Below, one piece after another: positions 1-30,462 of a stretch of 64,000 nt of DNA (its first letter is position 1; the number at the start of each line of letters is the position of its first letter). The stretch lies in assembly GCF_002407065.1 (NCBI RefSeq), contig NZ_CP023564.1:496001-560000 (forward strand). Reading direction: 5' to 3'. Below the pieces are notes generated by a model, which was given only the letters and a program-made list of their open reading frames with translations, had not been told where the DNA came from and did no database searches. This stretch comes from Brachybacterium ginsengisoli. Lineage in GTDB: Bacteria > Actinomycetota > Actinomycetes > Actinomycetales > Dermabacteraceae. Made by a program: the position numbers and the translations under genes.

Positions 1-953
1 GCCAGCGCCCACTCGAAGGAGTCGGCCACGCCGTCGGAGACCGGCAGCAGGTTGTAGGGGCCGGACTGGAACAGGGCGAGCTTGCCCTGGGTGAACAGGT
101 CGCGGGTGAAGTCGCCGTTCTCGTTGGTGTCCGCGGCGCTCGGGGCGATGTTCTGGACGTTGATGAGGTCCGCCATGTACTGGAAGGCCTCGATGCCCTC
201 GGGGGAGGCGAAGACGTACTTGTCGTCCTTCTGCCACTCGGCGCCGTTGGCGGCCAGCATCGGGCCGATGATCGCCTGGCGGTCGGCCTGGGAGTTGATG
301 CCGAACTGCTCGCGGGAGTCGACCTCGAAGCCGTCCTCGCCCGGGTGCTTGCCGGCGCCGTCGAGGGTCAGGGCGGCCCCGGCCTCGCGCAGGGTGTCCG
401 AGTCCGCTCTCGGGTCGAAGGCGAGGGTCGACGGGTCCACGCCCGCCTCCTCGACCAGGGCCTTGTTGTAGAACAGGGCGATCGAGTCCCAGATCTGGGG
501 CACGCCCCAGAGGCCGCCGTCGCGCGTGTAGAGGTCCACCACGGACTTCTCCCACTGCGCGGCGCCGTCGGGGACCACCTCGTTGATGTCCAGCAGCGCC
601 TCGGAGTCCTTCAGCTGGATGTAGTTCGCGGAGTTCATCCAGTACACGTCCGCCGCGTCACCGCTGGCGACGTCGAGCGGCAGGCGGGTCCAGTAGTCGG
701 CCCACGGCACCACGTCGATCGTGACGTTCCAGCCGGTCTTCTCGGTGAAGGCGGTGAACGACTCCTCGTAGGCGGCCACGGCGTTCTCGTCCCAGAGGCG
801 GAAGGTCAGCGAGCCCTTGTCACCCCCCGTGCTGCCGCCGGCGTCGCTGCCGCCGGAGCCGCCGGAGGTGTCCGACGAGGGCGAGCAGGCCGCAGCGGTG
901 CCGAGCAGGCCGGCCGCGGCGAAGGAGGAGAGGAGGGTACGGCGGTTCAGCAC
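1..953 (-). CDS. Sugar ABC transporter substrate-binding lipoprotein (partial)
   Basis: Extracellular solute-binding protein (family 1) that captures a sugar for the two permeases encoded just upstream in the same direction. The GTG at 951-953 is chosen because GGAAGGA lies 7 nt before it. The N-terminus reads VLNRRTLLSSFAAAGLLGTA and then AAC, so a twin-arginine-like, hydrophobic signal ends at Cys23, followed by a Ser/Gly linker. The mature part begins LTFRLWDENAVAAYEESF and continues with DINEVVPDGAAQW and GGLWGVPQIWDSIALFYN, typical of sugar-binding proteins. The C-terminus is cut by the window edge. The permeases end about 200 nt upstream, with a palindromic repeat in between. No ATPase gene is visible; actinobacterial sugar importers often share an MsiK-type ATPase. 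The substrate cannot be read from sequence. Confidence 0.9.
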   Translation of the reverse strand, partial: MLNRRTLLSSFAAAGLLGTAAACSPSSDTSGGSGGSDAGGSTGGDKGSLTFRLWDENAVAAYEESFTAFTEKTGWNVTIDVVPWADYWTRLPLDVASGDAADVYWMNSANYIQLKDSEALLDINEVVPDGAAQWEKSVVDLYTRDGGLWGVPQIWDSIALFYNKALVEEAGVDPSTLAFDPRADSDTLREAGAALTLDGAGKHPGEDGFEVDSREQFGINSQADRQAIIGPMLAANGAEWQKDDKYVFASPEGIEAFQYMADLINVQNIAPSAADTNENGDFTRDLFTQGKLALFQSGPYNLLPVSDGVADSFEWAL

Positions 954-1070
954 GGTGATGTCCTTCCGGGAGCACGAGTCCTCCCAGTATCGTCCGTCGG
1001 CCGAGGTTCCGGGGCGCCATATGACCTCCGGTGACACCGCGCCCTCACCCCCGGGCCCACGCCCCGTCGT

Positions 1071-1124
1071 GAGAGTGACAGACCTGGGGGAATGGCTGGC
1101 CCGTTCGCCCGTGTTCGTGACTCC
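1071..1124. repeat. Palindromic intergenic repeat, copy A
   Basis: Imperfect inverted repeat. The left arm is GTGACAGACCTGGGGGA and the reverse complement of the right arm is GGAGTCACGAACACGGGC. It belongs to the same family as the copies near 7.5 and 8.8 kb. It sits inside the sugar ABC operon, between the second permease and the binding protein, where a stem-loop could attenuate or stabilise parts of the transcript. Confidence 0.7.
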
Positions 1125-1155
1125 GGCTGGGCTGGGTGGGGCTGGTCCGGGCCGC

Positions 1156-2049
1156 TCAGCGCAGGGTCGCGTCGCCCACCGAGCGGGTGATCTGCTTCTG
1201 GAAGACCACCATGAGCAGCACCAGCGGCAGCATCGCGAGCGTGGTCCCCGCCATCACCAGGGTCCAGTTGTTGTTGTACTGCGACTGCAGCGCCGAGGTC
1301 GCGACCGTGATGACCCGCCATTCGGGGCCGGAGGTGATCACCATCGGCCACATGAAGTTGTTCCAGTGCGTCACCACGGTGATCAGCACCAGGGTGACGA
1401 TGATCGGCCGGTTCAGCGGCACCACCAGGTGCCACAGCAGGCGCAGGGTGCCGGCGCCGTCGATCCGCATCGCATCCATCAGCTCGCCGGGCACGCCGCG
1501 GAAGTTCTCCCGCAGCAGGAAGATCGCGTACGGGGAGCCGAGCACGAAGGGGAGGATCAGCGCCCAGAACGTGTTGCGCAGCCCCACCTCGCTCATCATC
1601 AGGTACAGCGGCACCACCACGACCACCTGCGGCACCATCAGCGTCGCGATGTACACCCAGAACAGCAGGTCACGGCCGGGGAAGCGGAGCTGTGCGAAGG
1701 CATAGGCGGCGAGCACCGAGAACACCATCTGACCCACCAGGATCACCGCGACCATCTGCACGGTCACCACCACCGGGGTCACGAAGCCGTCCGGCCCGGC
1801 CTCCGGGGAGAACAGGGCCAGGAAGCTGTCCAGCACCGGCGGCGCGGGGACGGACAGCGGGCCCTGCTGGGCGAACTGCTGCGTGGAGGTGAAGGCCGTC
1901 ATCACCGAGACCAGGAACGGACCCAGGGTGAGCACGGCCGCGACGGCCAGCACCAGGTAGGTCGCGGCGTGGGCAAGGAGGCGCCGGGCCAGGAGCGGCC
2001 CGGTCAGCGGGCGGCGACGGCGCGGGGGAGCCGGATTCTCGGTGGTCAT
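1156..2049 (-). CDS. Carbohydrate ABC transporter permease (MalG type)
   Basis: Inner-membrane permease of 297 residues, second of a sugar importer pair. It begins MTTENPAPPRRRRPLTGP, with a basic cytoplasmic N-terminus, then shows about six hydrophobic segments. The EAA-loop region that docks the ATPase reads DAMRIDGAGTLRLLWHLVV followed by PLNRP; the canonical EAA is replaced by DAM. It follows the MalF-type gene after 11 nt and has GAGGAG just before the ATG, so the two are co-transcribed. The substrate-binding protein gene follows after about 200 nt. Confidence 0.93.
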   Translation of the reverse strand: MTTENPAPPRRRRPLTGPLLARRLLAHAATYLVLAVAAVLTLGPFLVSVMTAFTSTQQFAQQGPLSVPAPPVLDSFLALFSPEAGPDGFVTPVVVTVQMVAVILVGQMVFSVLAAYAFAQLRFPGRDLLFWVYIATLMVPQVVVVVPLYLMMSEVGLRNTFWALILPFVLGSPYAIFLLRENFRGVPGELMDAMRIDGAGTLRLLWHLVVPLNRPIIVTLVLITVVTHWNNFMWPMVITSGPEWRVITVATSALQSQYNNNWTLVMAGTTLAMLPLVLLMVVFQKQITRSVGDATLR

Positions 2050-2060
2050 CTCGTCTCCTC

Positions 2061-2924
2061 TCAGCTCAGGTCGTAGGTGATGCGGCGGGAGAACCAGCGC
2101 TGCTGCGCCAGCGTGATCACCACCAGCAGGAGGAACAGGATCACGGCGACGGCGCTCGCCCGGCCCAGGCGGCTGCTCACGAACGCCTCGTGGTAGATCA
2201 GCGAGGCGATCACCTCGGTGCGGTGCTGGGGCCCGCCGCCGGTGAGGGCGAAGACCATGTCGAACACCTGGAAGCTCGCCACCACCTGGGTGACCGCGAG
2301 GAAGAAGGTGGTGGGGCGCAGCAGCGGGATCGTCATGTAGAGCATCGACTGCCACGGGGCGGCGCCGTCGATCCGCGCCGCCTCGTAGATCGAGCCGGGG
2401 ATCCGGGTCAGCCCCGCCTGGAAGAACAGCGAGATGTAGCCGACGTTCTGCCAGATCGCCACGAACGCCACCGCGGGCAGCGCCAGCGACGGATCGGTGA
2501 GCCACTCGACGCGCACGCCCAGGATCTGGTTCAGGGCGCCGACGGAGGGCTGGAAGATCCACTTCCACACCACGCCCAGAGCCAGCGGCGCGCACACCCA
2601 CGGGATCACCACGATGACCCGCACGATCGCCGATCCCGGCAGGGCCCGCACCAGCTGGGTCGCGAGCATCAGGCCCAGCGCCAGCGAGAGCGGCACGGAG
2701 ATCAGCGTGAACAGCGCGGTGACCAGCAGCGAGTTCAGCAGCGCCCCGTCGGACAGCAGCCCCTGATAGTTCTCCAGGCCGATGAACTGCCGCGAGCCCA
2801 GCAGGTCCCAGCGGAACAGGGAGACCACGAACGCGAGGACGACGGGCAGGATCAGGAAGGCCGCGACGCCGATCAGGCTGGGGGCGACGAGCAGCCACCC
2901 CAGCAGGGGGCGACGGGAGTTCAT
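2061..2924 (-). CDS. Carbohydrate ABC transporter permease (MalF/UgpA type)
   Basis: First membrane subunit of the sugar importer, 287 residues. The N-terminus is MNSRRPLLGWLLVAPSLIGV, and the classic early motif FIGLENYQGLL lies near residue 50. The EAA loop is EAARIDGAAPWQSMLYMTIP followed by LLRP, which fits the family well. A strong GGAGGGAG precedes the ATG at 2922-2924. It heads the minus-strand group permease-permease-binding protein. No sugar regulator or glycosidase is adjacent inside this window, so the substrate is open. Confidence 0.94.
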   Translation of the reverse strand: MNSRRPLLGWLLVAPSLIGVAAFLILPVVLAFVVSLFRWDLLGSRQFIGLENYQGLLSDGALLNSLLVTALFTLISVPLSLALGLMLATQLVRALPGSAIVRVIVVIPWVCAPLALGVVWKWIFQPSVGALNQILGVRVEWLTDPSLALPAVAFVAIWQNVGYISLFFQAGLTRIPGSIYEAARIDGAAPWQSMLYMTIPLLRPTTFFLAVTQVVASFQVFDMVFALTGGGPQHRTEVIASLIYHEAFVSSRLGRASAVAVILFLLLVVITLAQQRWFSRRITYDLS

Positions 2925-3005
2925 GCCGCTCCCTCCGGGGGACGGGTCGCGAAGGCATCCATCGGATCAACCTATAGCAGGTCGGGGCCCTTCCCGACGC
3001 GTCTG

Positions 3006-3848
3006 TCAGAGGGTGGCCGGTGCCCCGAGCATCGAGAGCAGCTGCAGCTTCTCGTGGCTCTCGCTGCCGGGCCGGGCGGTGTAGACCAGCAGCGCCTGCG
3101 AGCTGCCGGGATCGTGCAGCGACTGGCAGTCCAGCTCGAGCGGACCCACCTCGGGGTGGAGGAAGTGCTTCACCTCCCGCGGCCGCAGCCCCACCTCCTG
3201 CCGCGCCCACAGCTCGCGGAACTCCTCGCTGCGGGCGGTGAGATCCTCGGCCAGGTGCGCGGCGCGGGAGCTCGGACCGCGGCGGGTCGCGACCTCGCGC
3301 AGCCCAGAGGCCCACAGCCGGGACAGGAACCCGTGATCGGCGGGATCGTAGAGGTCGCGCGCGCCGGGATCGGTGAACCAGCGGTACCCGATGGCGCGGG
3401 AGGGGCCGGTGAGGGCGGTGAGGTCGCCGGTCAGGGCGATGCCGGGCGGGGTCTGGCGGAGGGTCTCGCCGAGCTCCGTGATGATCTCCGCCGGGGTGTC
3501 CTGCAGACGGTCCAGGATCCGCATCAGGCCGGGGCCGATGTGCTCGCCGCCGCCCTCGCGCTCGGGCGGGCGGTGACCGGCCAGCAGGAACAGATGGTCG
3601 CGCTCGTCGCGGGTGAGGTGGAGGCCCTGCGCGATCGAGACCAGCATCTGCTCGGAGGGCTGCGGGCCGCGCCGCTGCTCGAGCCGGGAGAGGTAGTCGG
3701 CGGACATGTGGCACAGCGCCGCGAGCTCCTCGCGGCGCAGACCGCTGGTGCGTCGTCGGCCGCCGCGCGGGAGGCCGACGTCCTCCGGCTGGAGCGCCTC
3801 GCGGCGTCCGCGCAGGAAGACGGCCAGACCGTCCCGGTCGATGCTCAT
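3006..3848 (-). CDS. MmyB-like XRE-family transcriptional regulator
   Basis: DNA-binding regulator of 280 residues. The N-terminal third is an XRE helix-turn-helix ([20 protein letters not shown], then [13 protein letters not shown]). The rest matches the MmyB-like ligand-binding domain, with late motifs LYDPADHGF and [20 protein letters not shown]. The ATG at 3846-3848 has GGAGGGGGA upstream. It is divergent from a short-chain dehydrogenase. In actinobacteria this regulator family is commonly paired with such a dehydrogenase and is thought to bind a lipid-like ligand, so it probably controls its neighbour. The target ligand is unknown. Confidence 0.92.
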
Positions 3849-3970
3849 CGGATCCCCCTCCGTGTCGGCGCCTGAAGGCCGGTCGCTGCGGGCTGGTCGC
3901 TGCGGGCCGCATCCGGCGGCCCGGCCGCCGTGGCGGGGCCCGTCGGGCGAGATGTCTCCGCCCGGTCCTC

Positions 3971-3999
3971 TTTCTAGTCCGACGGCGGCGCGCAGGCAA
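3971..3999 (-). promoter_or_regulatory. Candidate promoter of the MmyB-like regulator
   Basis: On the minus strand, TTGCCT (3994-3999) and TAGAAA (3971-3976) are separated by 17 nt, a reasonable -35/-10 pair. It lies about 120 nt upstream of the regulator start. Confidence 0.4.
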
Positions 4000-4024
4000 C
4001 GGTCTGCGCCGCCGCAGCGTAGGA

Positions 4025-4042
4025 GCATCTATCCCTGGATGC
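4025..4042. promoter_or_regulatory. Inverted repeat GCATC-N8-GATGC between regulator and dehydrogenase
   Basis: A 5-bp dyad lies in the divergent intergenic region, close to where a dehydrogenase promoter would be expected. It is a candidate operator for the MmyB-like protein; short dyads also occur by chance in GC-rich DNA. Confidence 0.3.
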
Positions 4043-4113
4043 GGCACGTCGGGCGCTTCAGGCTGGATCCCGTTCACCCCGACCACCCCGTCGGCCCGAC
4101 CCGAGGAGCCCCC

Positions 4114-5055
4114 ATGGCCCGCACCGCCCCCGATCTCGCCCTTCCCGATCTCACCGGCCGCCGTGCCGTCGTCACCGGCGCCTCCGACGGCATCGGCGTG
4201 GTCATCGCCCGCCGCCTCGCCGCCGCCGGGGCGGAGGTGATCCTGCCGGTGCGGAACCCCGCCAAGGGTGAGCGCGCGGCCGACGGGATCCGCGCCGCGG
4301 TGCCCGGAGCGCAGGTGTCGCTGCGTGCGCTGGACCTCGCCTCGCTCGCCTCCGTCGGCGCCCTGGCCGCGACCCTCCAGGACGAGGGCGTGCCGATCCA
4401 CCACCTCATCGCGAACGCCGGCGTGATGACCCCGCCCGAGCGGCGCACCACCGAGGACGGCTTCGAGCTGCAGCTGGGTGCGAACCACCTCGGTCACGCC
4501 GCGCTGGTCGCCGCGCTGATGCCGCTGCTGCGCGATGCGGGGGCGACCGTCGCCTGGCAGATCAGCATCGCGGCCGCCCGGGGCGGGATCCACTGGGAGG
4601 ACCCCCAGCACGAGCGCTCCTACGACCCGATGCGCGCCTACAGCCAGTCGAAGATCGCGCTCGGCCTGCTCGGGCTCGAGCTCGACCGCCGCAGCCGGGC
4701 CGGCGGCTGGGGCGTGCGCAGCGGCCTGGCCCATCCCGGCGTCGCCCCCACCAATCTGCTGGCCGCCCAGCCCACGCTCGGCCGGTCGGCGGAGACCCCG
4801 TCCCGCCGGATCATCGGCGCGCTCTCGCGGCGCGGGATCCTCGTCGGCACCCCGGAGAGCGCGGCGCTGCCCGCACTGCTCGCCGCCACGTCCCCCGAGA
4901 CCGCCGGGGGCCGGCTCCACGGGCCGACGGGCCCCGGCCATGTGGGCGGCGGCCCCGGGCCGCAGACGCTCTACCGATCGCTGCGCAGCGCCGACGAGGC
5001 GCGTCGCGTGTGGGAGTGGACGCAGGAGCTGACGGGCGTGCCCTTCCCCCGGTGA
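4114..5055 (+). CDS. Short-chain dehydrogenase/reductase
   Basis: NAD(P)-dependent oxidoreductase of 313 residues. The cofactor loop TGASDGIG sits near residue 25, NAGV near residue 105, and the catalytic YSQSK near residue 175. The serine is provided by the segment [11 protein letters not shown]. The spacing and the C-terminal half resemble the retinol dehydrogenase or protochlorophyllide-reductase-like branch, which acts on hydrophobic alcohols and ketones; the substrate is not predictable. CCGAGGAG lies 5-8 nt before the ATG at 4114. It is divergent from the MmyB-like regulator and probably controlled by it. Confidence 0.92.
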
Positions 5056-5101
5056 GCCCCGCTGAGCGGCGCGACGGGGCCCTGCGAGGGGGTGCCTGGA
5101 T

Positions 5102-5107
5102 TACGCT
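5102..5107 (+). promoter_or_regulatory. -10 element TACGCT, leaderless arrangement for nadE
   Basis: TACGCT ends 6 nt before the nadE ATG and no Shine-Dalgarno is present, so transcription is predicted to start at or next to the start codon. The same layout recurs before the ROK regulator, adenosine deaminase, HTH-MNT and GAP-family genes. Confidence 0.55.
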
Positions 5108-5113
5108 CGTTCC

Positions 5114-7477
<2,364 letters not shown>

Positions 7478-7494
7478 GCTCGGGGCGGCGGACC

Positions 7495-7556
7495 CGGGCG
7501 TGAGGGTGACGAACCGGGGCCTACGGCGACCTCTATCGCCCCTGTTCGTGACAACC
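7495..7556. repeat. Palindromic intergenic repeat, copy B
   Basis: A 62-bp unit starting CGGGCGTGAGGGTGACGAAC and ending CTGTTCGTGACAACC. The arms pair as GTGACGAACCGGGGC against GTCACGAACAGGGGC (reverse complement of the right arm). It lies between the convergent nadE and DUF559-like genes and may act as a bidirectional terminator. Confidence 0.8.
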
Positions 7557-7578
7557 GCGGGCCGGACCCAGGTGGGCT

Positions 7579-7640
7579 CGGGCGTGAGGGTGGCGAACCG
7601 GGGCCTACGGCGACCTCTATCGCCCCTGTTCGTGACAACC
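7579..7640. repeat. Palindromic intergenic repeat, copy C
   Basis: Identical to copy B over 62 bp except for one A-to-G change (TGACG to TGGCG), offset by 84 bp. The near-identity of the pair points to a recent duplication. Confidence 0.8.
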
Positions 7641-7669
7641 TCCAGGATCTCGTGCCCCCGGGGACCGTC

Positions 7670-8632
7670 TCAGGCGGCGGAGGCCTCGGGGCGCCAGCCT
7701 TGTCGTCTCAGCGCCTCCGCGATGCGCCGCACCCCTCGTCGGCACTGGTGGCGAAGGTCGGCGGCGACGGTCTGGAGCTCGACCCAGCCCTGTTCCTCAC
7801 GACTCTCGCGACGCCGGATGTCCTTGTCCTGCTGCTTCTTCGTGAGGTGGCTCGGGCCTTCGTGCTCGACGCACAGCCTCCAGTCGGGCCACGCGAGGTC
7901 GGGCTCGCCGAGATCGACGCCGTTCTCGCGGATGCGCACATTGAGCACTGGAGCCGGGAGTCCGGCGCGCATGGTGGCCAGGCGCAGGGCGGTCTCCGCC
8001 GGTGAATCGCTGCCCACTCGCACGAGATCGAGCGCCTCGCGGAGCCGAGGCCCGCCCGGGCTTCGAAACTCGTGGACGGCTGCGGTGAGCTGTGCCGGAG
8101 TCGCATGCGGGGCGGTCCTTCCGGCCTCCGCCCAGGGGCGAGGGATGCGCACCAGGTGGTCACCGATTGCCACGAGGTCGTCGAGGGAGAGCTCCCGGGC
8201 GAGATCGAGCCAGGTGCGGATCCTCCCGGTGACGCGGAGGTCGCTGATCGTGTCGATGTCGGAGTCGGGCAGCCGCTGCCGGGTCCAGAGCAGGATCGAG
8301 GTGTCGCGGTGCACGACGCCGTTCCCCGTCAGCTGGACCGGAGTGACCTTCGGACCGTCGAGCCACTCCTGTGACGAGGCGGGCAGCGGGAACTCCCAGT
8401 ACCGGGCCGCGCTGAGGCCCCGCGCCACCGCTCCTGGGACGGAGCGGGTCAGTGCGGTCAGCAGATCCGCCTCGGTGAGATCGACGTCGTCGCGGGCGTA
8501 GATGCCGTAGCCCAGCCGGCGCAGATCCTTCGAACGCAGCCGGTCGATGCTCACCCCGGCCTTCTTCGCCTCCGCGATCGTGAACACCGCGTGCGGCAAC
8601 GAGGGAGGGAGCGGAGCAGGTCGGCGAGGCAT
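7670..8632 (-). CDS. AbiEi-like/DUF559-type nuclease-fold protein
   Basis: 320-residue protein of a type common in actinobacteria and usually annotated as hypothetical. Residues 1-90 resemble the helix-turn-helix start of AbiEi antitoxin-like proteins (FTIAEAKKAGVSIDRLRSK, YGIYARDDV). The C-terminal 100 residues look like a Vsr/PD-(D/E)xK fold: SPAETALRLATMRAGLPAP, GEPDLAWPDW, LCVEHEGPSHLTKKQQ and EEQGWVELQ, giving acidic residues in the expected order. Whether it cuts DNA is unknown. The minus-strand ATG at 8632 has no clear Shine-Dalgarno; CACGAT lies 6 nt upstream. Repeat pairs lie on both sides. It has no AbiEii toxin partner next to it. Confidence 0.75.
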   Translation of the reverse strand: MPRRPAPLPPSLPHAVFTIAEAKKAGVSIDRLRSKDLRRLGYGIYARDDVDLTEADLLTALTRSVPGAVARGLSAARYWEFPLPASSQEWLDGPKVTPVQLTGNGVVHRDTSILLWTRQRLPDSDIDTISDLRVTGRIRTWLDLARELSLDDLVAIGDHLVRIPRPWAEAGRTAPHATPAQLTAAVHEFRSPGGPRLREALDLVRVGSDSPAETALRLATMRAGLPAPVLNVRIRENGVDLGEPDLAWPDWRLCVEHEGPSHLTKKQQDKDIRRRESREEQGWVELQTVAADLRHQCRRGVRRIAEALRRQGWRPEASAA

Positions 8633-22463: not shown

Positions 22464-23765
22464 TCAGCCCTCCAGGGTCTCCTCGGCGTCGGAGGCGGGC
22501 GCCGGGTGCTCGGCCTGGGCCTGATCCGCGACACGGATGGCGTGGAACGCGGGCACCACCACCTCGTCCCGCAGCGCCTCGCGCTGGGCGGCCGGGGCGA
22601 AGCCCGCCTCGAGCCCGGTGAGCACCATCCGCTCGAGGTCCTCGAGGGTCCAGTCGAAGGCCTGCGCCGCCAGCAGCATCTCGCGGGTGGTGCCGGTGCG
22701 GCTCATCAGACGGTTGTCGCTGCTGATCGCGAGGGCGAAGCCGAGGCGGTGCAGCGGGCCCACGGGATGCGCGGCCACGACGTCGGCCACGCCGGTCTGC
22801 AGGTTCGAGCTGGGGCACACCTCGAGGCAGATCTGATCGCGGAGCACGCGGGCGGCGACCCGGCCGAGGCCCGCGGCGCCGTCGGACTCCGCTGCACCGA
22901 CAGTCGTGCCCTCCGCAGTGCCCTCCGCCGTGCCCCCCACTGAAGAGCCCGCCGTCCTCGAGCCCTCCGCCGGCTCCGCGAGGGCGAGGTCGATGTCCTC
23001 CACCAGGCGGACGCCGTGCCCGATCCGCTCGGCGCCGCAGTCCAGGGCGTCGGCGATCGAGGCGGGACCGTCGGCCTCCCCGGCGTGGATCGTGACCCGC
23101 AGTCCGAGCTCACGAGCGCGCTCGAACTGGGCGCGGAACCAGGAGGCGGGGAAGCCGGCCTCAGGGCCGGCGAGATCCAGGCCGAGAACGCCGGAGTCCC
23201 GGCGTGCCAGTGCGATCTCCACCAGGTCGTCGGTGGGATCGAGGTGGCGCAGGTAGCACAGCAGCTGGCCGACCACGATCCGTCGGCCGGACTCCGCCGC
23301 CGCGGCGACGCCCTCGTCCATCCCGTCCTGGACGGCCTGGACGGCCTCGTCGAGGGTGAGCCCGCCGTCGGTGTGCTGGTGGGGTGCCCAGCGGGTCTCG
23401 GCGTAGACCACGCCGTCGGCCACCATGTCCTCCACGAACTCGCGGGCGATGCGGCGCAGGTGGGGGGCCGACTGCATCAGGGCGACCGTGTGCTCGAAGG
23501 TCGAGAGGTAGGCGGGCAGGGAGCCGGAGTCGGCGGTGGAGCGGAACCAGTCGGCGACCGCACGCGTCTCGTCGGCTCCGGCGGGGGCGGTCGAGGACTC
23601 GGCCGCGGCGTGGGTGGCGCCCTCGGCATCGGGCCCGAGGCCGGGGACATCGAGTCCCTGCTCGCGGCTGAGCTCGATGACGGTCGCGGCGCGCAGGCCG
23701 CCGTCGAGATGATCATGGAGCGCCACCTTGGGGAGGGCACCGAGGAGAGGAGGGGAGGGATCCAT
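22464..23765 (-). CDS. add: Adenosine deaminase
   Basis: Converts adenosine (and deoxyadenosine) to inosine in purine salvage. 433 residues; zinc ligands appear as HDHLDGG (His17, His19), the substrate/zinc site HAGEADGP, and SSDN near the end. The family is usually about 340-370 residues. The extra length is two low-complexity inserts: one at residues 45-65 and one of about 35 residues after LVEDIDLALAEPAEG (repeats of GTAEG/GTTVG). The ATG at 23765 has TATCCT exactly 6 nt upstream and no Shine-Dalgarno, so it looks leaderless. It stands alone. Confidence 0.95.
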   Translation of the reverse strand: MDPSPPLLGALPKVALHDHLDGGLRAATVIELSREQGLDVPGLGPDAEGATHAAAESSTAPAGADETRAVADWFRSTADSGSLPAYLSTFEHTVALMQSAPHLRRIAREFVEDMVADGVVYAETRWAPHQHTDGGLTLDEAVQAVQDGMDEGVAAAAESGRRIVVGQLLCYLRHLDPTDDLVEIALARRDSGVLGLDLAGPEAGFPASWFRAQFERARELGLRVTIHAGEADGPASIADALDCGAERIGHGVRLVEDIDLALAEPAEGSRTAGSSVGGTAEGTAEGTTVGAAESDGAAGLGRVAARVLRDQICLEVCPSSNLQTGVADVVAAHPVGPLHRLGFALAISSDNRLMSRTGTTREMLLAAQAFDWTLEDLERMVLTGLEAGFAPAAQREALRDEVVVPAFHAIRVADQAQAEHPAPASDAEETLEG

Positions 23766-23839: not shown

Positions 23840-24289
23840 CTACGCCTTCCGGTAGCCGAGGGACAGCAGGTGATCGGCCACGGCCCCGGCATCCTCGAGG
23901 GAGATCTGGCCGAGCGCACGGGCAAGCTCGCCGCGTTCGGTCGTGCCGGAGTGGTCGGCTGCGACGGCCTCCGCCGCAGCCTCCAGCGCGAGGTCCACCG
24001 CCTCGCGCAGGGGGACGGACTCCGCATGCCGGGCGAAGGCGGCCCAGGCCCGCTCGCGCGCGCCCAGGGGAACCTCCGCGACGGGCTGCTGCTCGGGGCG
24101 TCCGATCATCACGGCGGACCCGCCGTCAGCGTCCGACCCTGACAGGACCGTCCTGCGGAGCAGGTGGGCGGGGAAGGGGCCCACGGTGACCTCGTCCCGG
24201 CCGCTGGTGCACGTGATCCAGGCGCGGTTCCCGTTCCTGATGATCGTGAGGGCGTCCCCGTCGACGTCCGACATCTCGATGCTGTTCAT
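23840..24289 (-). CDS. Small protein with TCTSG motif, paralogue 1
   Basis: 149 residues, family not recognised. The start ATG at 24287-24289 has GGAG 5 nt upstream. Residues 8-50 read DVDGDALTIIRNGNRAW then ITCTSGRDEVTVGPFPAHLL. The same pattern (DGDALT, W-TCTSG-DEVT-GPFPA) recurs in the small protein at 30166. The remaining 100 residues are Ala/Glu-rich and helical. There is no signal peptide. It is divergent from the ECF sigma/anti-sigma fusion, and its paralogue lies just after the LuxR regulator. The pairing suggests a role in the same signalling unit; the function is unknown. Confidence 0.75.
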   Translation of the reverse strand: MNSIEMSDVDGDALTIIRNGNRAWITCTSGRDEVTVGPFPAHLLRRTVLSGSDADGGSAVMIGRPEQQPVAEVPLGARERAWAAFARHAESVPLREAVDLALEAAAEAVAADHSGTTERGELARALGQISLEDAGAVADHLLSLGYRKA

Positions 24290-24536
24290 GGTTCTCCGTA
24301 CTGAGCTTCGGACCGCAGCCCCTGTGGCGCCGTCCACACAGTTCCACGCACCGGTTCCGCTTCTATGACGCGGCGAGCATGATGTGGTGACAACAGTCCG
24401 GAAAGTACGAGATCTGCCTCACTGTCGAGTCATGGTCCGACCGGTCGCACGTTGTTCTGAGTGGGGGGACGGGGACTGCCGCGCCCCTCGCGCAGCCCCG
24501 AGGGCCCGCAGCGCATCGAGGAGACAGGTGAGGTGC

Positions 24537-26702
24537 ATGACCGATCGACGTGACCGCGAGGTCGGCGCGCGCCTCGACTCCCTGTCGGACGTGGAGCTGC
24601 TCTCGGCGGTGCGTTCGGGGGACACGGGCGCCTACTCCGGGCTCTACCACCGACACCTCGGGGCCGCGCTCGCCCAGGCACGGCGCCTCGGTGGCGGGCA
24701 CGACCCGCAGGACGTGGCGCACGAGGCCTTCCTGAAGATCCTGAGGTCGATCCTCGACGGCGGCGGGCCGAAGGACGGCTTCGCCGGATACCTGATGCGG
24801 GCCGTTCGCAACGAGGCCATCGACCGCTCCCGGAAGACGCGGGAGATCGCCGTCGAGGACGTCGAAGCAGCGGATCCGATCGGGCTGCTGATCTCCGACG
24901 GTGTCAACGAGCGGATCGAGAAGACGATGATGCAGAGAGCCCTCAACAGCCTGCCGCCGGCCTGGCAGCAGATCCTCTGGCTGACCGAGGTGGAGGGGCT
25001 GCGCCCCCGTGAGGTCGCCCCTCGGCTCCAGCTCAGCCCGAATGCGGTGGCGCAGCTCTCGCGCAGGGCCCGGAACGGGCTCCGCACGGCGTGGCTGCAG
25101 GCGCATGTGGACGTCGCCTCCGCCGAGGGAGGATGCCGGGCGACAGCCGCGCTGCTCGGCGCGTACGAGAGCGATCAGCTCGGCGCCGCGCGGGCGGCCC
25201 AGGTCGAAGAGCATCTGGAGGGATGCCTTCGCTGCGCCGCCGCGCTGGAGGAGCTGCGTCAGCTCTCCACGGGAATGCGCGCCCTGCTGCTCCCGGCGGT
25301 CCTCGGCTCACCTCTGCTGCTGGGCAGGCTGTCCGACACGCTGGCAGGTGCAGGAGCGAGTCTCGCGCTCGCCACCGCTCAGGGCGTCACCGGGGGCGGT
25401 GGCACCGGGGGAGTCGTGGCCGGCGGCGGCGCCGCGGGGAAGGCGCTCTGGTGGAAGATGGCGACCTCGCTGTCGAGCTGGCCGGTGGTGATGGCGGGAT
25501 CCGCCGTGGCGGTCGCGGGCATCGTGCTCCTGGCCCAGCTCCCGAGCACGCCGGGTGGCTCGGGCCGGAGTCCTGAGGCGTCCGCCGTCCGCGCGCCGGT
25601 GGAAGCGCCGTCCTCGTCGCGCCCTCTTCCCGAGGCCACGGCCCCGGGTGGCTCGGAGGCGGAGGACCCGTCGCAGCTCGACCGGTCGTCAGGTGCCGCG
25701 GACGGCGCTTCGACCGTCGCGCCGGGTGGGGCGACGCCGGCCGTCGGCACCGAGCCGCTCGAGGCCGAGGGTGAGCTGGAGGCCCTGGCAGACGGCTCGG
25801 CTCCGGTGCCTGCACCGACTCCGGAGGAGGGGCAGCCTGCCTCGGAACCGGCGGCGTCGCCGGCTCCGGTCGCCCCACCTGCGCTGTGGCCGCTTCCGCC
25901 GTCGATGCCCGACCCGTCGCCGGGGCAGATCGTCGAGCCTCCGCAGGAGCCGCTGGAGCCGGAGCCGACGGAGGACCCGGTGGAGCCGACGGAGGACCCG
26001 GTCGAGCCGGAGCCGACGGCTGAGACGATGGAGGAGCCGGAGCCGACGGACGAGCCGACCGTGCCGGAGCCGACGGACGAGCCGGTGCCGACGGACGAGC
26101 CGACGGCGCCGGTGCCGACGGAGGAGCCCTCGGAACCGGAACCCGCCCTCGGGGCGCCCACGATCGCCTTCCCTGCAGGGGGAGCCTATGCCGTCCCGCT
26201 CACGCTGTCGGGGGAGGGGACGCCCGGCGGCGTCGTACGCATCCGGGACGCGGAGGGTCGCGAGGTGGGGTCGAGCGCTGTCGGCGAGGACGGCACCTGG
26301 AGCATCTCGCCGACGCCCGGCGCCCCGGATGTCCCCACCCGGTACCGCGCCACGCAGGAGGCGGACGGCGCGTCCTCGCCGAGCAGCGCCTGGACCGAGG
26401 AGTACCTCTACCTCGCTCCCGAGCTCCTCGACCCGGCGGCCGGTTCCGCGATCCCGGCGAACACCTCGCACGGCGTCTGGTCCGGGGCCTGGATGGTGAT
26501 GACCTTCGGGGTCGTGGAGGAGCAGGGGTACGCCGTGATCATCGACGGTCAGCGATGGGACCTTCCGGCGCAGGACTCGGCGGAGCCTGCGCGGTACCTC
26601 GCCCTGCTCGGGCGCGGGACGCACACGATCGAGCTCGTCTACGTCGATCCCGCCGACGGTCGGCTCGGAGCGAGCCGGACGGTGTCCCTGACGGTCACCT
26701 GA
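24537..26702 (+). CDS. Membrane-tethered ECF sigma factor fused to zinc-finger anti-sigma and extracellular domain
   Basis: 721 residues. Sigma region 2 lies at about 30-90 (QDVAHEAFLKILRS), region 4 at 135-185 (LNSLPPAWQQILWLTEVEG, LQLSPNAVAQLSRRARN). A zf-HC2-like anti-sigma motif follows with Cys200, His226, Cys230 and Cys233 (HLEGCLRCAAALEEL). After a Gly-rich stretch, one membrane span occupies 315-335. The outside part is a Pro/Glu/Thr stalk with many EPT/DEPT repeats (about 340-545) and an Ig-like C-terminus. Tethered ECF sigma factors with such C-terminal extensions are known in Actinobacteria. Release by proteolysis or a conformational signal from the wall is inferred. The GTG-free start is set by the ATG at 24537 with GAGG upstream. 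Confidence 0.88.
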   Translation: MTDRRDREVGARLDSLSDVELLSAVRSGDTGAYSGLYHRHLGAALAQARRLGGGHDPQDVAHEAFLKILRSILDGGGPKDGFAGYLMRAVRNEAIDRSRKTREIAVEDVEAADPIGLLISDGVNERIEKTMMQRALNSLPPAWQQILWLTEVEGLRPREVAPRLQLSPNAVAQLSRRARNGLRTAWLQAHVDVASAEGGCRATAALLGAYESDQLGAARAAQVEEHLEGCLRCAAALEELRQLSTGMRALLLPAVLGSPLLLGRLSDTLAGAGASLALATAQGVTGGGGTGGVVAGGGAAGKALWWKMATSLSSWPVVMAGSAVAVAGIVLLAQLPSTPGGSGRSPEASAVRAPVEAPSSSRPLPEATAPGGSEAEDPSQLDRSSGAADGASTVAPGGATPAVGTEPLEAEGELEALADGSAPVPAPTPEEGQPASEPAASPAPVAPPALWPLPPSMPDPSPGQIVEPPQEPLEPEPTEDPVEPTEDPVEPEPTAETMEEPEPTDEPTVPEPTDEPVPTDEPTAPVPTEEPSEPEPALGAPTIAFPAGGAYAVPLTLSGEGTPGGVVRIRDAEGREVGSSAVGEDGTWSISPTPGAPDVPTRYRATQEADGASSPSSAWTEEYLYLAPELLDPAAGSAIPANTSHGVWSGAWMVMTFGVVEEQGYAVIIDGQRWDLPAQDSAEPARYLALLGRGTHTIELVYVDPADGRLGASRTVSLTVT

Positions 26703-26732
26703 CCGCGGTCACACGATGTGCGGTCGGTGACC
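26693..26732. terminator. Stem-loop at the end of the sigma fusion gene
   Basis: GGTCAC-ct-GACCGC pairs with GCGGTC-g-GTGACC around a 13-nt loop. It overlaps the sigma gene stop and lies between convergent genes, so it may end both transcripts. No U-tract is present. Confidence 0.55.
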
Positions 26733-26744
26733 CCGTGCGGCGGC

Positions 26745-27281
26745 TCAGCGCGGTTCGACGGCGGCAGCGGCGTTCGCCGCGCGGTGCTTCGCGGCCAGTC
26801 CGAGATACACCCGGGCGTTCTCCCGCAGTGCCGTCGAACCCTCCTCGTCCAGCGCCTTGCGCACCCTGGCCGGCACCCCGGCCACCAGCGAGCCGGGCGG
26901 GATCTGCATGCCCTCGGTGACGACGGCGCCGGCGGCGACCAGGCTGCCGGCCCCGACCACCGCGCCGTTGAGCACCACCGCTCCCATGCCGATCAGGGAG
27001 TCGTCCTCGATGGTGCAGCCGTGCAGCACTGCACGGTGGCCCACCGAGACACCGGAGCCCACCACGGTGGGGAAGCCGGCGTCGGTGTGGACCACGCAGC
27101 CGTCCTGGATGTTGCTGCGCGGGCCGATGGAGATCGAGTCCATGTCCCCGCGCAGCACGGCGCCGTAGAACACGCTGGCCTCCTCGGCCAGGGTCACGGC
27201 ACCGATGAGGGTGGCGTTCGGCGCCACCCAGGCGGTCTCGGGCACCTCGGGCGCACTGCCCTCGAAGTCGATCGTGGTCAC
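26745..27281 (-). CDS. Gamma-carbonic-anhydrase-like hexapeptide protein
   Basis: 178 residues, left-handed beta-helix of hexapeptide repeats (GAVTLAEEASVFYGAVLRGD, GVSVGHRAVLHGC, IGMGAVVLNGAVVGAGSLV). Histidines in CVVHTD and GHRAVLHGC match the three zinc ligands of the gamma-CA/YrdA/PaaY group. These proteins form trimers; some hydrate CO2, others have no known activity. The GTG at 27279-27281 is preceded by AAGGAG and 8 nt. It lies between the two regulators in the opposite direction and is probably independent of them. Confidence 0.92.
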   Translation of the reverse strand: MTTIDFEGSAPEVPETAWVAPNATLIGAVTLAEEASVFYGAVLRGDMDSISIGPRSNIQDGCVVHTDAGFPTVVGSGVSVGHRAVLHGCTIEDDSLIGMGAVVLNGAVVGAGSLVAAGAVVTEGMQIPPGSLVAGVPARVRKALDEEGSTALRENARVYLGLAAKHRAANAAAAVEPR

Positions 27282-27536
27282 GGCAGGTTCTCCTTCGTCG
27301 CTGAGCGGTTCCTCCTGGGGACGACGGTACGTGCTCGGCGCTGCGATGGTGGACCGGGCACCGGGGTGCTGCAGTGGGACGAGCTCGGCGGTGAGCGGAA
27401 CATGGATATCTGCCACCTCTCGGCTGGTGGATGTGATGAAGTGTGAACCCAAGGGGAGAGCATCTCGTGGCAGCGCCGGATTCGGTCGGAGGGACCTCGG
27501 CGCCGCGCACGGCCGGATGCGGACGAAAGGACCGGG

Positions 27537-29969
27537 ATGCTGCACCGTCGGGCAGTGGACGCTCTGGATGCATCGGCACCGCTGCTGTTCTTCGAGGCGG
27601 TCCATGGCAGCGGGAAATGGACCGTGCTGCGGCAGTGGGAGAGCGGCGCCGGGAGCCGTCGCAGCGAGCTCCGCCTCCTGTACCGCTCGGAGGGTCTTCC
27701 TGCGACCTCGGCAGGCCTGACACGGCTGCTCTGGTCCTCGCTGCAGCATCAGCTGGGCCATGACCTGACGGACCTGCCCGAGGACGACGCCCTGCTCGAT
27801 GATGCCGTGGCACGTGGTCTGCGCCAGATCCGGCGGCCGGTCGCGGTGGCGGTCCATGGCGTCGAGCGTCTCGACGACGGGGCGTTCGACGCGCTCATGC
27901 ACCTGCTCGGGTCCGGGATCCGTCTGATCCTCGCCGGGATCGACGTCTCGCCCCTGGCCCTGCGCGCGCAGCGGCGCGGGGTGTACTACTCCATGCTGAG
28001 GGATCGCGAGACGCTGCTGACGCTCTCGGAGACCCGTGCTCTGGTCGAGGAGCGGGGTGCGGCGCTCACCGAGATGGCCTCGAAGGTCCTCCACGAGGCC
28101 ACCACGGGACATCCCGGCCTGATCGTGACCTGTCTGGAGTCCCTGCCGGTGGAGACCACCGCCGGCCTGGTCACCCGTGACCGCGCCCTCATGGAGTTCC
28201 TCCTGGGGGAGCCGCTGGACGAGGAGGGCTCCGACTTCGTGGACTTCTTGCGGACGGCGGCGCGCGTGCCGCGCCTGACCACCGCCGAGGCGGCGGTCCT
28301 GACCGAGCAGGAGCTCGCCCCTCGCTACCTGAGCAGGCTGCTGGAGCTGTCCCTGGGGCGGATGGTCTGGCATCCCCTGCTCCAGGAGCGGGTCTTCCGC
28401 TGGGATGAGAGCCTGCGCCTGGTCCTCATGCAGTCGGCGCCGCCGCCGCGCGAGCGCAAGGACGATCTCGTCGATCGCTTCGTCGCCGCGGCCCGGGTCG
28501 CGGGCGATGACGAGCTCCTGATCTCCTCGCTGGTGCACACCGGGCGTCTGGACGAGGCGGAGGCCCTGCTGCGAGAGCAGATCTGGGACCTGCTGCCCAA
28601 TGCGATGGATCCGCTGTGGTCATCTCTCGCGCGGCTCAGCCCCCTGCAGCTGGTGGACCGGCCCGCGCTGCTCAGCGCGCGTCTGCGGCTCAGCCAGTCG
28701 GGCCCGCCGTCGCCGGCCTCGCTGCGCGCGGTGTCCGGCGCCGCGAAGGTCCTCGTCGACTGCGTGGATGCCGGTGCGCCGTGGAAGCGGATGGGCAGTC
28801 TGATCTACTCGATCGAGTTCGCGCTCCATGCCAGGGAGCGGGAACGGGTGATCGAACTGTTCCGGCGGGCGCGGGGCCTGCTGGGCGACCTCGTGGACGC
28901 CGACGCCGCGGAGGCGGCGGGCGGCCGGGAGATGTCCGAGCTGCTGCTCCTGGCCGAGACCGTCTTCCGCAGCGGGAACACGATTCCGGCGGCGGAGATC
29001 GCGCAGCTCGCCGCGCAGCTCATCGAGGCGGATCCCGTGGGCCGCGACCCTCGCGGCGAGCGCCTGGCCTTCGCGCGCCGGCTGATGCTCCACGACCACC
29101 GGGCGCGGGGTCTCGAGGACGGCTTCTCCCCGGAGGAGCTGCTGAGCGGCCCCGAGCTCCTGTGGCGCGACGCGGATCTCGTGGTGACGGCGATGACGCT
29201 CATGTGGAACGACCTCGACGACGGGGACTTCGCCGCGGCGGACGCACAGCTGCACGCCGCCGCGGTCCGGGTCCATGATCCCGAGGCGTGGCCGATCCTC
29301 ATGCTCATGCGGGCGCACATCGCCGTGTACCGGCAGTCGCCCGGTGAGCTCGAGGCCTTCATCGCCGCCTTCGAGCGGGGAACGCTCTCCGTCCCGGGCC
29401 CGTTCGCCCAGCAGTCCCTGAGCCAGATGCAGCGCGTGACCGACCATCTGAGCCGCAAGGTGGGGCGGGCCGTCCCCAGTCCCGGATACCTCCCCGCATT
29501 CCCGGACGGAGGGCGCCCGTTCTACCCGCGCACCCAGTTCACCGTGCATCTCATGGAGGCGCTGTACGCCCTGCGCGCCGGTCGACGGGAAGCCCTCGCG
29601 ACCGCGCTCTCCCAGGCGGTCGCGCTCACCCCGCGCCGTGAGCTGGGCCTGTACACGCTCTCGAGCGCGAGCGGTGAGGAGGTGCAGAGCCTGCGCGAGA
29701 TCGCCGAGGACGTCCCGGGAGGGACGCGGCTGGGCCTCGAGAGGGCTCTGCGCTTCGCCGGCAACACGCTGAACCCGGGCGTCGACCTCTCCGAACGGGA
29801 GCAGGAGGTGCTGCGGCATCTGCGGGCAGGGGCCACGAATCCGGAGATGGCGCGGGCGCTGTTCGTCTCGGTCAACACCGTGAAGTTCCATCGGGCGAAT
29901 CTCATGCGCAAGCTCGACGTCACCAGCCGTGATCGGCTCCTCCAGAAGGCCGACCAGTTCGGCCTGTGA
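27537..29969 (+). CDS. MalT/LAL-like LuxR-family transcriptional regulator
   Basis: 810 residues. The C-terminus (about 740-808) is a LuxR helix-turn-helix: LSEREQEVLRHLRAGATNPE, MARALFVSVNTVKFHRANL, then MRKLDVTSRD. The N-terminus has a P-loop-like HGSGKWTVLRQW near residue 24; Trp sits where Ser/Thr normally follows Lys, so ATP binding may be lost. The middle is helical, TPR-like. Family members sense inducers such as maltotriose, or act in secondary metabolism. AAAGGA lies 6 nt before the ATG. It is followed by a palindrome and a TCTSG-motif gene in the same direction, likely targets. The inducer is unknown. Confidence 0.9.
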   Translation: MLHRRAVDALDASAPLLFFEAVHGSGKWTVLRQWESGAGSRRSELRLLYRSEGLPATSAGLTRLLWSSLQHQLGHDLTDLPEDDALLDDAVARGLRQIRRPVAVAVHGVERLDDGAFDALMHLLGSGIRLILAGIDVSPLALRAQRRGVYYSMLRDRETLLTLSETRALVEERGAALTEMASKVLHEATTGHPGLIVTCLESLPVETTAGLVTRDRALMEFLLGEPLDEEGSDFVDFLRTAARVPRLTTAEAAVLTEQELAPRYLSRLLELSLGRMVWHPLLQERVFRWDESLRLVLMQSAPPPRERKDDLVDRFVAAARVAGDDELLISSLVHTGRLDEAEALLREQIWDLLPNAMDPLWSSLARLSPLQLVDRPALLSARLRLSQSGPPSPASLRAVSGAAKVLVDCVDAGAPWKRMGSLIYSIEFALHARERERVIELFRRARGLLGDLVDADAAEAAGGREMSELLLLAETVFRSGNTIPAAEIAQLAAQLIEADPVGRDPRGERLAFARRLMLHDHRARGLEDGFSPEELLSGPELLWRDADLVVTAMTLMWNDLDDGDFAAADAQLHAAAVRVHDPEAWPILMLMRAHIAVYRQSPGELEAFIAAFERGTLSVPGPFAQQSLSQMQRVTDHLSRKVGRAVPSPGYLPAFPDGGRPFYPRTQFTVHLMEALYALRAGRREALATALSQAVALTPRRELGLYTLSSASGEEVQSLREIAEDVPGGTRLGLERALRFAGNTLNPGVDLSEREQEVLRHLRAGATNPEMARALFVSVNTVKFHRANLMRKLDVTSRDRLLQKADQFGL

Positions 29970-29978
29970 CCTGCATCG

Positions 29979-29996
29979 CCTACCCCTCTGGGTAGG
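29979..29996. promoter_or_regulatory. Perfect palindrome CCTACCC-N4-GGGTAGG
   Basis: A 7-bp inverted repeat with a CTCT centre, 10 nt after the LuxR stop and about 170 nt before the small TCTSG gene. There is no U-tract, so an operator is as likely as a terminator. The left half TACCCCT fits a NarL-type heptamer (TACYYMT). Confidence 0.45.
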
Positions 29997-30165
29997 TGCT
30001 GCGAGCCGTTCCCTGCACAGGCGTGCAGTCTTCCCTCGGCGGTCGACCACGGAGGCCGGACGTCCGGCACAGTGGGGAGAGGGCATCGACGACTGGATGG
30101 TCTGTCGATGCGTCGGCCGCACTCATCCCTGCCATGCCGCGCATGCAGACCTGGAGGGGACAACG

Positions 30166-30462
30166 ATGAGTACACGACACGAGGGCAGCGGGAGCAGCGC
30201 CGCAGGGCTGCCCGGAGCGTCCGAGGAGAGCAGCCGCAGCTCGGCGAGATTCGCGCTGATGGCGATGGCCGGGCAGGAGATGCCGGTCCATGCCGTCGAG
30301 GCGACCGATCCCGACGGCGATGCGCTCACCGTCACGATGGACGCCCAGGGTCTGTGGGTGACGTGCACGTCCGGAGCGGACGAGGTGACGCTTGGCCCGT
30401 TCCCGGCCGAGGCGATGGCCGAGGCGCTGAGCGACCTGATGGCGGCTTCTCGCACGGTGTGA
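30166..30462 (+). CDS. Small protein with TCTSG motif, paralogue 2
   Basis: 98 residues. GGAGGGG lies about 5 nt before the ATG at 30166. The N-terminal 50 residues are Ser/Ala-rich; residues 50-85 read DPDGDALTVTMDAQGLWVTC then TSGADEVTLGPFPAEAMAEA, closely matching the protein at 23840-24289. No signal peptide or membrane span is seen. It follows the LuxR-type regulator in the same direction. The family is not recognised; a small regulatory or binding partner is only a guess. Confidence 0.72.
   Translation: MSTRHEGSGSSAAGLPGASEESSRSSARFALMAMAGQEMPVHAVEATDPDGDALTVTMDAQGLWVTCTSGADEVTLGPFPAEAMAEALSDLMAASRTV

Follow-up and report, generated by a model that had tools for sequence, protein, structure and literature searches.

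The window analysed here comprises 64,000 nucleotides (nt) of Brachybacterium ginsengisoli (NZ_CP023564.1, 496,001-560,000) and holds a locus where two small genes stand beside the genes of two large regulators. The question raised by this arrangement is what the small proteins have to do with each other and with the regulators. Small gene A (23840..24289, minus strand, 149 residues) is divergent from the gene of an extracytoplasmic function (ECF) sigma factor fusion of 721 residues (24537..26702, plus strand), and small gene B (30166..30462, plus strand, 98 residues) follows the gene of a regulator of 810 residues with a C-terminal LuxR/GerE helix-turn-helix (27537..29969, plus strand). The four genes lie where an earlier, sequence-only reading of this DNA had placed them. 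Our best reading is that two envelope-related regulators would each drive one paralogous small intracellular effector, the wiring being deduced from sequence; that these are two parallel signal circuits, with the small proteins as their outputs, we consider somewhat better than an even chance.

Relationship of the Two Small Proteins

Genes A and B have in common a domain of about 45 residues, located at residues 1-51 of A (24137..24289, minus strand) and 41-91 of B (30286-30438). When protein B was searched against the window's own genome, A was recovered at E 1.0e-12 with 48% identity across 48 residues; the match therefore exceeds chance, and chance or low complexity, which the sequence-only reading had named as a possible source of it, was ruled out. 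The start of gene A was placed at the ATG at 24289; a longer GTG start is less likely because in most copies the domain starts at or near the start codon.

The profile search of the shared block that had been suggested along with that reading was carried out and gave 26 copies of the domain in 15 of 38 Brachybacterium genomes, to which we refer by codes such as G008, G010 and G021, G000 being the window's own. The 26 include a broken copy in G037, whose second piece was not counted; a partial match in G022 (6.5e-5) was also excluded. The profile was built from most of these copies and its E-values are partly circular. The block had been said to occur nowhere else in the window, with the correction that it is not unique in the genome, where a third copy is found at G000:C1:948560.

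The Sigma Fusion and the Element Preceding Gene A

In the window sigma factor, sigma2 (PF04542, 2.8e-8) and sigma4 (PF08281, 1.7e-7) were both detected past the cut-off, together with a zinc-finger anti-sigma domain (PF13490, 5.7e-6, residues 200-234) that is present too in a G025 copy. Past the zinc finger, a hydrophobic stretch, probably a membrane segment, and a stalk rich in P, T and E were read by eye in the translation. A Pfam scan of the C-terminal part gave Big_6 alone, an Ig domain; the carbohydrate-binding domain that is a feature of ECF52 was not found in it. It matches the kind of protein that a review treats as ECF48/52/53 (PMC8999054).

Homologues of its residues 1-242 were found at E≤1e-20 in 6 of the 38 genomes, and in each of these a sigma gene has a domain gene running divergently from it. 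Alignment of the six intergenic regions showed the element CCACGC-N16-TGACGC, which reads GCGTCA-N16-GCGTGG toward gene A and is identical in all six; little else could be aligned except a stretch at the start of gene A. In the window it occupies 24344..24371 (minus strand), and we take it for a putative sigma-factor promoter, with the same hexamers and spacing at the six loci. Its first base lies 80-88 nt ahead of the start codon in every case, and a shared pair of hexamers with common spacing arose in none of 1000 first-order Markov resampled sets. A matrix derived from the six sites, which are the same loci in which the element was discovered, scored them at 28.0-32.8, against best scores of -6.2 to 7.0 in the 300 nt preceding each of the 20 other copies of the domain. 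The gene A site is the sole exact match in the window's genome; across the six sigma genomes there are 8 exact matches, six of which are the gene A sites. With a longer pattern, too, 0-1 mismatch was reached in these genomes at the six gene A sites alone.

Two sigma fusions were seen in G025 (L050, G025:C12, 11975-17995), where they flank one small gene and an adenosine-deaminase-like gene. The second of them, past the adenosine-deaminase-like gene, has no divergent small gene of its own.

Across the order, without the domain, the sigma family is widespread: at E≤1e-30, 132 of 396 sampled genomes have it, a number that takes in the six of Brachybacterium. Outside the genus we scanned 16 sigma loci, taken from 14 genomes; most were top-scoring, and the sole match from the same family was added. 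Within 400 nt upstream of sigma the matrix reached 12.0 (11.98 unrounded), 12.4, 12.8, 17.5 and 20.6 at five of the 16 (p 7e-4 against 426 background windows). Three of the four top background windows, scoring 18.0-19.1, proved to be further sites ahead of the gene that comes after sigma; in G149, G066 and G305 they stand 94, 95 and 107 nt from the start codon (the G066 start is by our own reading; the gene caller gives 137 nt). By eye these genes look exported and adhesin-like; Big_8 was above the cut-off in two of the three and Collagen_bind in one, while an LPXTG match stayed under the cut-off. Since some other genera thus have similar sites before sigma and before an adjoining adhesin-like gene, the small gene seems to have come to occupy the position of nearest sigma target in Brachybacterium. 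Chance was taken to explain high scores apparently within coding sequence (L043 8717, L105 8203), as well as a handful between 13 and 15.

The sites of the adhesin-like genes are at L197 7736, L198 7673 and L199 7723, and a PIG-L deacetylase-like gene came next in both cases scanned. In G222 (L204, G222:C2:42000-54000, 1-7731), two AAA ATPase genes, of which one encodes a LuxR helix-turn-helix, run divergently from a relative of the sigma fusion, and a sigma-type element is directed at them. The LuxR-type ATPase had no detectable relation to the window LuxR protein at E≤1e-3. G222 has a second sigma-LuxR pairing, with an apparently different LuxR family.

The LuxR Regulator and the Palindrome Preceding Gene B

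The 810-residue regulator had been called MalT-like. It is LuxR-type by its C-terminal GerE/LuxR helix-turn-helix, the sole Pfam domain past the cut-off; the likeness to MalT did not hold up, with 22.7 bits for the MalT model PRK04841 against a cut-off of 537, and over the helix-turn-helix only. Homologues at E≤1e-20 were found in 3 of 38 genomes (G000, G021 and G025), all three of which also have the sigma factor. In G000 and G025 the LuxR gene is directly followed by a domain gene; in G021 the domain gene is again downstream, at a distance of about 13 kb.

Between the LuxR gene and gene B, 170 nt ahead of the latter, there is a palindrome, CTACCC-CTCT-GGGTAG (29980..29995, no strand assigned), a putative operator for the LuxR protein. 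We scanned 452,848 bases of genus stretches, chosen around domain genes, for CTACCC-N4-GGGTAG with at most one mismatch and obtained 5 matches. Four precede a domain-gene start, by 170 nt in G000, 182 in G021, 135 in G025 and 163 in G008, and the fifth is in G021, 170 nt ahead of the gene that follows LuxR; the product of this gene has SdrD_B and SpaA domains within the 1835 residues examined. Genome-wide, CTACCC-N4-GGGTRG occurs at 16 distinct places in 14 genomes, and five of these are the domain-gene and surface-gene sites. It was also possible to see a second shared sequence, GCAGTCTTC (30025..30033, plus strand), which begins exactly 29 nt past the palindrome in G000 and has the same letters and spacing at the G021 surface-protein gene. 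In G025, AGTCTT stands in its place, one base further on.

A Walker-A-like stretch was noticed by eye in the LuxR proteins, GSGKWT in the window (27537-29969) and GSGTRS in G025 (L050 7824-10256). Some members of the family may therefore no longer bind nucleotides.

The Domain: Conservation, Predicted Fold and Distribution

Among 24 copies of the domain, divergence was 0.459 at third codon positions against 0.263 at first and 0.239 at second, an excess of third-position differences as coding DNA would give. In 22 aligned rows, residues E5, D8, T15, W24, T26, E33, T35 and G37 did not vary. The cysteine of the block, which had been described as invariant and a possible docking element, is not so conserved, since 3 of the 22 rows have A, G or T instead. 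Neither a signal peptide nor a membrane segment was seen by eye in the small proteins.

AlphaFold2 gave a confident beta4-alpha domain (mean predicted local distance difference test score 94.3) and, with less certainty, a helical tail for gene A. Compared with solved structures, the domain obtained middling scores (Z up to 6.5) with PUR repeats, the KhtT N-domain and Whirly proteins; for PUR repeat III, Z was 6.0-6.5 with a root-mean-square deviation of 1.8-2.5 across 49-56 residues, although Z below 8 may reflect just a common arrangement. The net charge of the domain is -6.6 on average, ranging from -1 to -10.

No Pfam or NCBIfam model matched proteins A and B at E≤10. The identity with DUF397, proposed from its layout, was dropped: no DUF397 match appeared in Pfam at E≤10 for the small proteins or the 22 domain rows, with the proviso that HMMER filters may lose weak matches. 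A profile match to a LysM-domain protein (4oit, E 0.0021) was rejected, as it spans just 26 residues. There was no clear match to the domain in PHROGs; relatives of A and B gave weak matches to small phage families of unknown function, the best at E 0.003. The phrog_14011 profile found nothing in 297 genomes nor in its own controls and is hence uninformative. Many small uncharacterised phage proteins were found among predicted viral structures with a Foldseek probability of 1.00, none with E below 0.001. Searches for phage relatives with tblastn returned matches at E 1-10 only, or none, and one that was examined proved antisense to an annotated gene. A limited literature search found no publication on this Brachybacterium family, which by that measure is undescribed.

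In the genomes and databases searched, the domain was found confidently in Brachybacterium alone. The 396 genomes of the order gave no confident copy outside the genus, the sole weak match being in G055 (1.8e-5, within a frame of 2051 residues); GTDB gave 9 loci, all Brachybacterium (with a single degenerate pattern); in IMG/VR no match was confirmed and on plasmids there was none. On these results a wider distribution was rejected. Two weak single-query matches, G000:C1:186315 and one in G014 inside an adenosine-deaminase-like gene, were also dropped.

Most copies are short free-standing genes with varied neighbours, named by eye as, for example, RNase J-, UvrB- or ribonucleotide-reductase-like. 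The two copies amid prophage genes, both in G036, form the N-terminal part of long proteins; exonuclease and WhiB-like genes are near one and SSB near the other. In these proteins (L043 7486-8382 and L049 8297-9382) the domain was seen joined to a long, apparently coiled-coil region, and a C-terminal motif of the L043 protein resembles the tail of gene A (DHLxxxG). A tree from a 36-residue block had mostly weak support and placed the LuxR-linked G025 copy among the sigma-linked copies; therefore A and B denote positions, not proven lineages.

Proposed Reading and Its Alternatives

Taking into account these observations, we propose that an envelope signal would release the tethered sigma factor, which would then transcribe gene A from GCGTCA-N16-GCGTGG. 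The LuxR protein would bind CTACCC-N4-GGGTRG and activate gene B and, in G021, also the large SdrD-like surface-protein gene. The idea of one signalling unit survives in part. The small genes are indeed linked to the sigma factor (six of six genomes) and to LuxR (three of three), although not as a single physical unit: LuxR is missing from three of the six sigma genomes and the two elements differ, which is why we speak of two parallel circuits. Considering that similar sites precede surface-protein genes in relatives and in G021, the small proteins are read as intracellular outputs of envelope- or adhesion-related circuits. They would remain cytoplasmic and might act as compact, mostly acidic protein-binding adaptors tuning a shared partner in envelope or adhesion responses; these are the weakest parts of the proposal.

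Several observations weigh against this reading. On the sigma side, five of the six loci are syntenic, adjoining a gene named by eye as adenosine-deaminase-like, and therefore are not independent. The pair in G010 sits elsewhere; its sigma factor is just 43% identical and has no zinc-finger match at E≤1. Sixteen genomes that lack this sigma factor have the exact element too, about as often as its control pattern, and it is therefore informative by position only. When two mismatches were allowed in the longer pattern, 32 places were found in the six genomes against 85 for the control, and a wider sigma regulon was dropped. In other genera, 11 of the 16 sigma loci score 8.2 or lower upstream, and the fourth top background window (19.2, L207) is unexplained. 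On the LuxR side, of the 16 places where the palindrome is found in the genus, 11 are other than the five sites described above; in G008 it precedes a domain gene while no LuxR homologue was found at E≤1e-20, for which our reading has no explanation; and GCAGTCTTC does not follow the palindrome at the G021 domain gene, in G025 or in G008. As for the small proteins, the domain of gene A itself has a net charge of just -1, and the adaptor role is modelled from charge and fold alone.

Of the 26 copies, 18 have neither such a sigma nor such a LuxR gene as a neighbour, or 17 once the G021 copy at 13 kb is taken as linked. The small genes might thus belong to a dispersed, phage-related orphan family, two copies of which landed by regulators and stayed there with no functional tie. 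The many different neighbourhoods, the two prophage copies and the resemblances to phage proteins in PHROGs and Foldseek would all suit this explanation. The outcome that the sequence-only reading had named as refuting it, homologues scattered with no link to sigma or LuxR genes, was found in part: most copies are scattered, and two slots recur. Yet the pairing is present in every sigma genome and every LuxR genome, and the sigma-side element is absent before the 20 other copies; we consider the orphan explanation unlikely.

We give similarly little credit to gene A being a feedback modulator that binds its own sigma factor, as a second anti-sigma or an anti-anti-sigma. A divergent gene behind an apparent sigma promoter would fit such a loop, and many of the domains are acidic. 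Against it, at E≤1e-20 a homologue of this sigma factor is lacking from 9 of the 15 genomes where the domain occurs, so that the domain probably has a more general partner.

The palindrome could also be a terminator hairpin of the LuxR gene rather than an operator. In G000, G021 and G025 it is found 10, 79 and 65 nt downstream of the LuxR stop codon, a possible terminator position that counts against our proposal as well. However, copies also stand before the distant G021 domain gene and the G008 domain gene, neither of them behind LuxR; GCAGTCTTC keeps its exact distance of 29 nt both in G000 and at the surface-gene site of G021; and a T run after the palindrome was not seen in the sequences inspected. 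A terminator therefore seems rather improbable to us.

Binding of single-stranded nucleic acid by the domain, suggested by PUR-alpha, Whirly, MRP and PC4 chains of beta4-alpha type among the structural matches (Z 4.2-6.5), is very improbable, as such scores may mean a common arrangement only, the KhtT N-domain scores equally well and the acidic character of the domains disfavours nucleic-acid binding.

The two parallel circuits may be extended, very tentatively, to a more general picture that we ourselves hold for unlikely. A genus-specific, phage-related beta4-alpha family would have been recruited as the common intracellular second step of several surface-sensing regulators, each having one paralogue as main target in place of, or together with, the surface-protein genes that comparable regulators seem to govern in relatives. 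Their signals would converge on one partner, possibly RNA polymerase or another general factor.

Comparison with Known Systems

Like ECF48, ECF52 and ECF53 and like SCO4117, the window sigma factor combines sigma2, sigma4, zf-HC2, a hydrophobic segment, a proline-rich stalk and an extracellular beta domain (PMC8999054, PMC5826349). It differs from ECF52 and SCO4117 in having the Big_6 Ig domain instead of their carbohydrate-binding module, and the motif proposed for SCO4117, CSGYN-17bps-SRHA (PMC5826349), is not the GCGTCA-N16-GCGTGG observed here. A further difference is that the nearest target proposed here would be a small protein. Few tethered ECF sigma factors have been studied so far, SCO4117 being termed by its authors the first characterised ECF52 member (PMC5826349). 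In this locus a candidate sigma promoter and the nearest target can be read from the sequence, and the arrangement recurs in some other genera beside adhesin-like genes; the small-protein family may offer a handle on the intracellular relay of actinobacterial envelope signals.

The layout resembles two kinds of module, with membership in neither established. In prophage modules of a transcription factor and a small open reading frame (TF-smORF), the transcription factor adjoins a small-protein gene which it is inferred to activate (PMC10432266), and relatives of the Brachybacterium small protein do occur among prophage genes. Here, in contrast, the genes are chromosomal, the regulators are of two types (sigma and LuxR) and the small proteins are paralogous; the function described there is inactivation of a phage repressor by the small protein, whereas here only adjacency and upstream elements are read. 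In Streptomyces, XRE-DUF397 systems likewise place multi-copy small proteins beside transcription regulators in Actinobacteria (PMC10364602). The Brachybacterium regulators, however, are not XRE, and their small proteins lack the DUF397 match.

Neighbouring Genes

Between the sigma and LuxR genes, on the opposite strand, sits a gamma-carbonic-anhydrase-like gene, whose top NCBIfam model scored 161.5 bits, under its cut-off of 250. The adenosine-deaminase-like protein of the window (22464-23765) was seen by eye to carry a low-complexity insert, SSVGGTAEGTAEGTTVGAAE, that its G014 homologue does not have.

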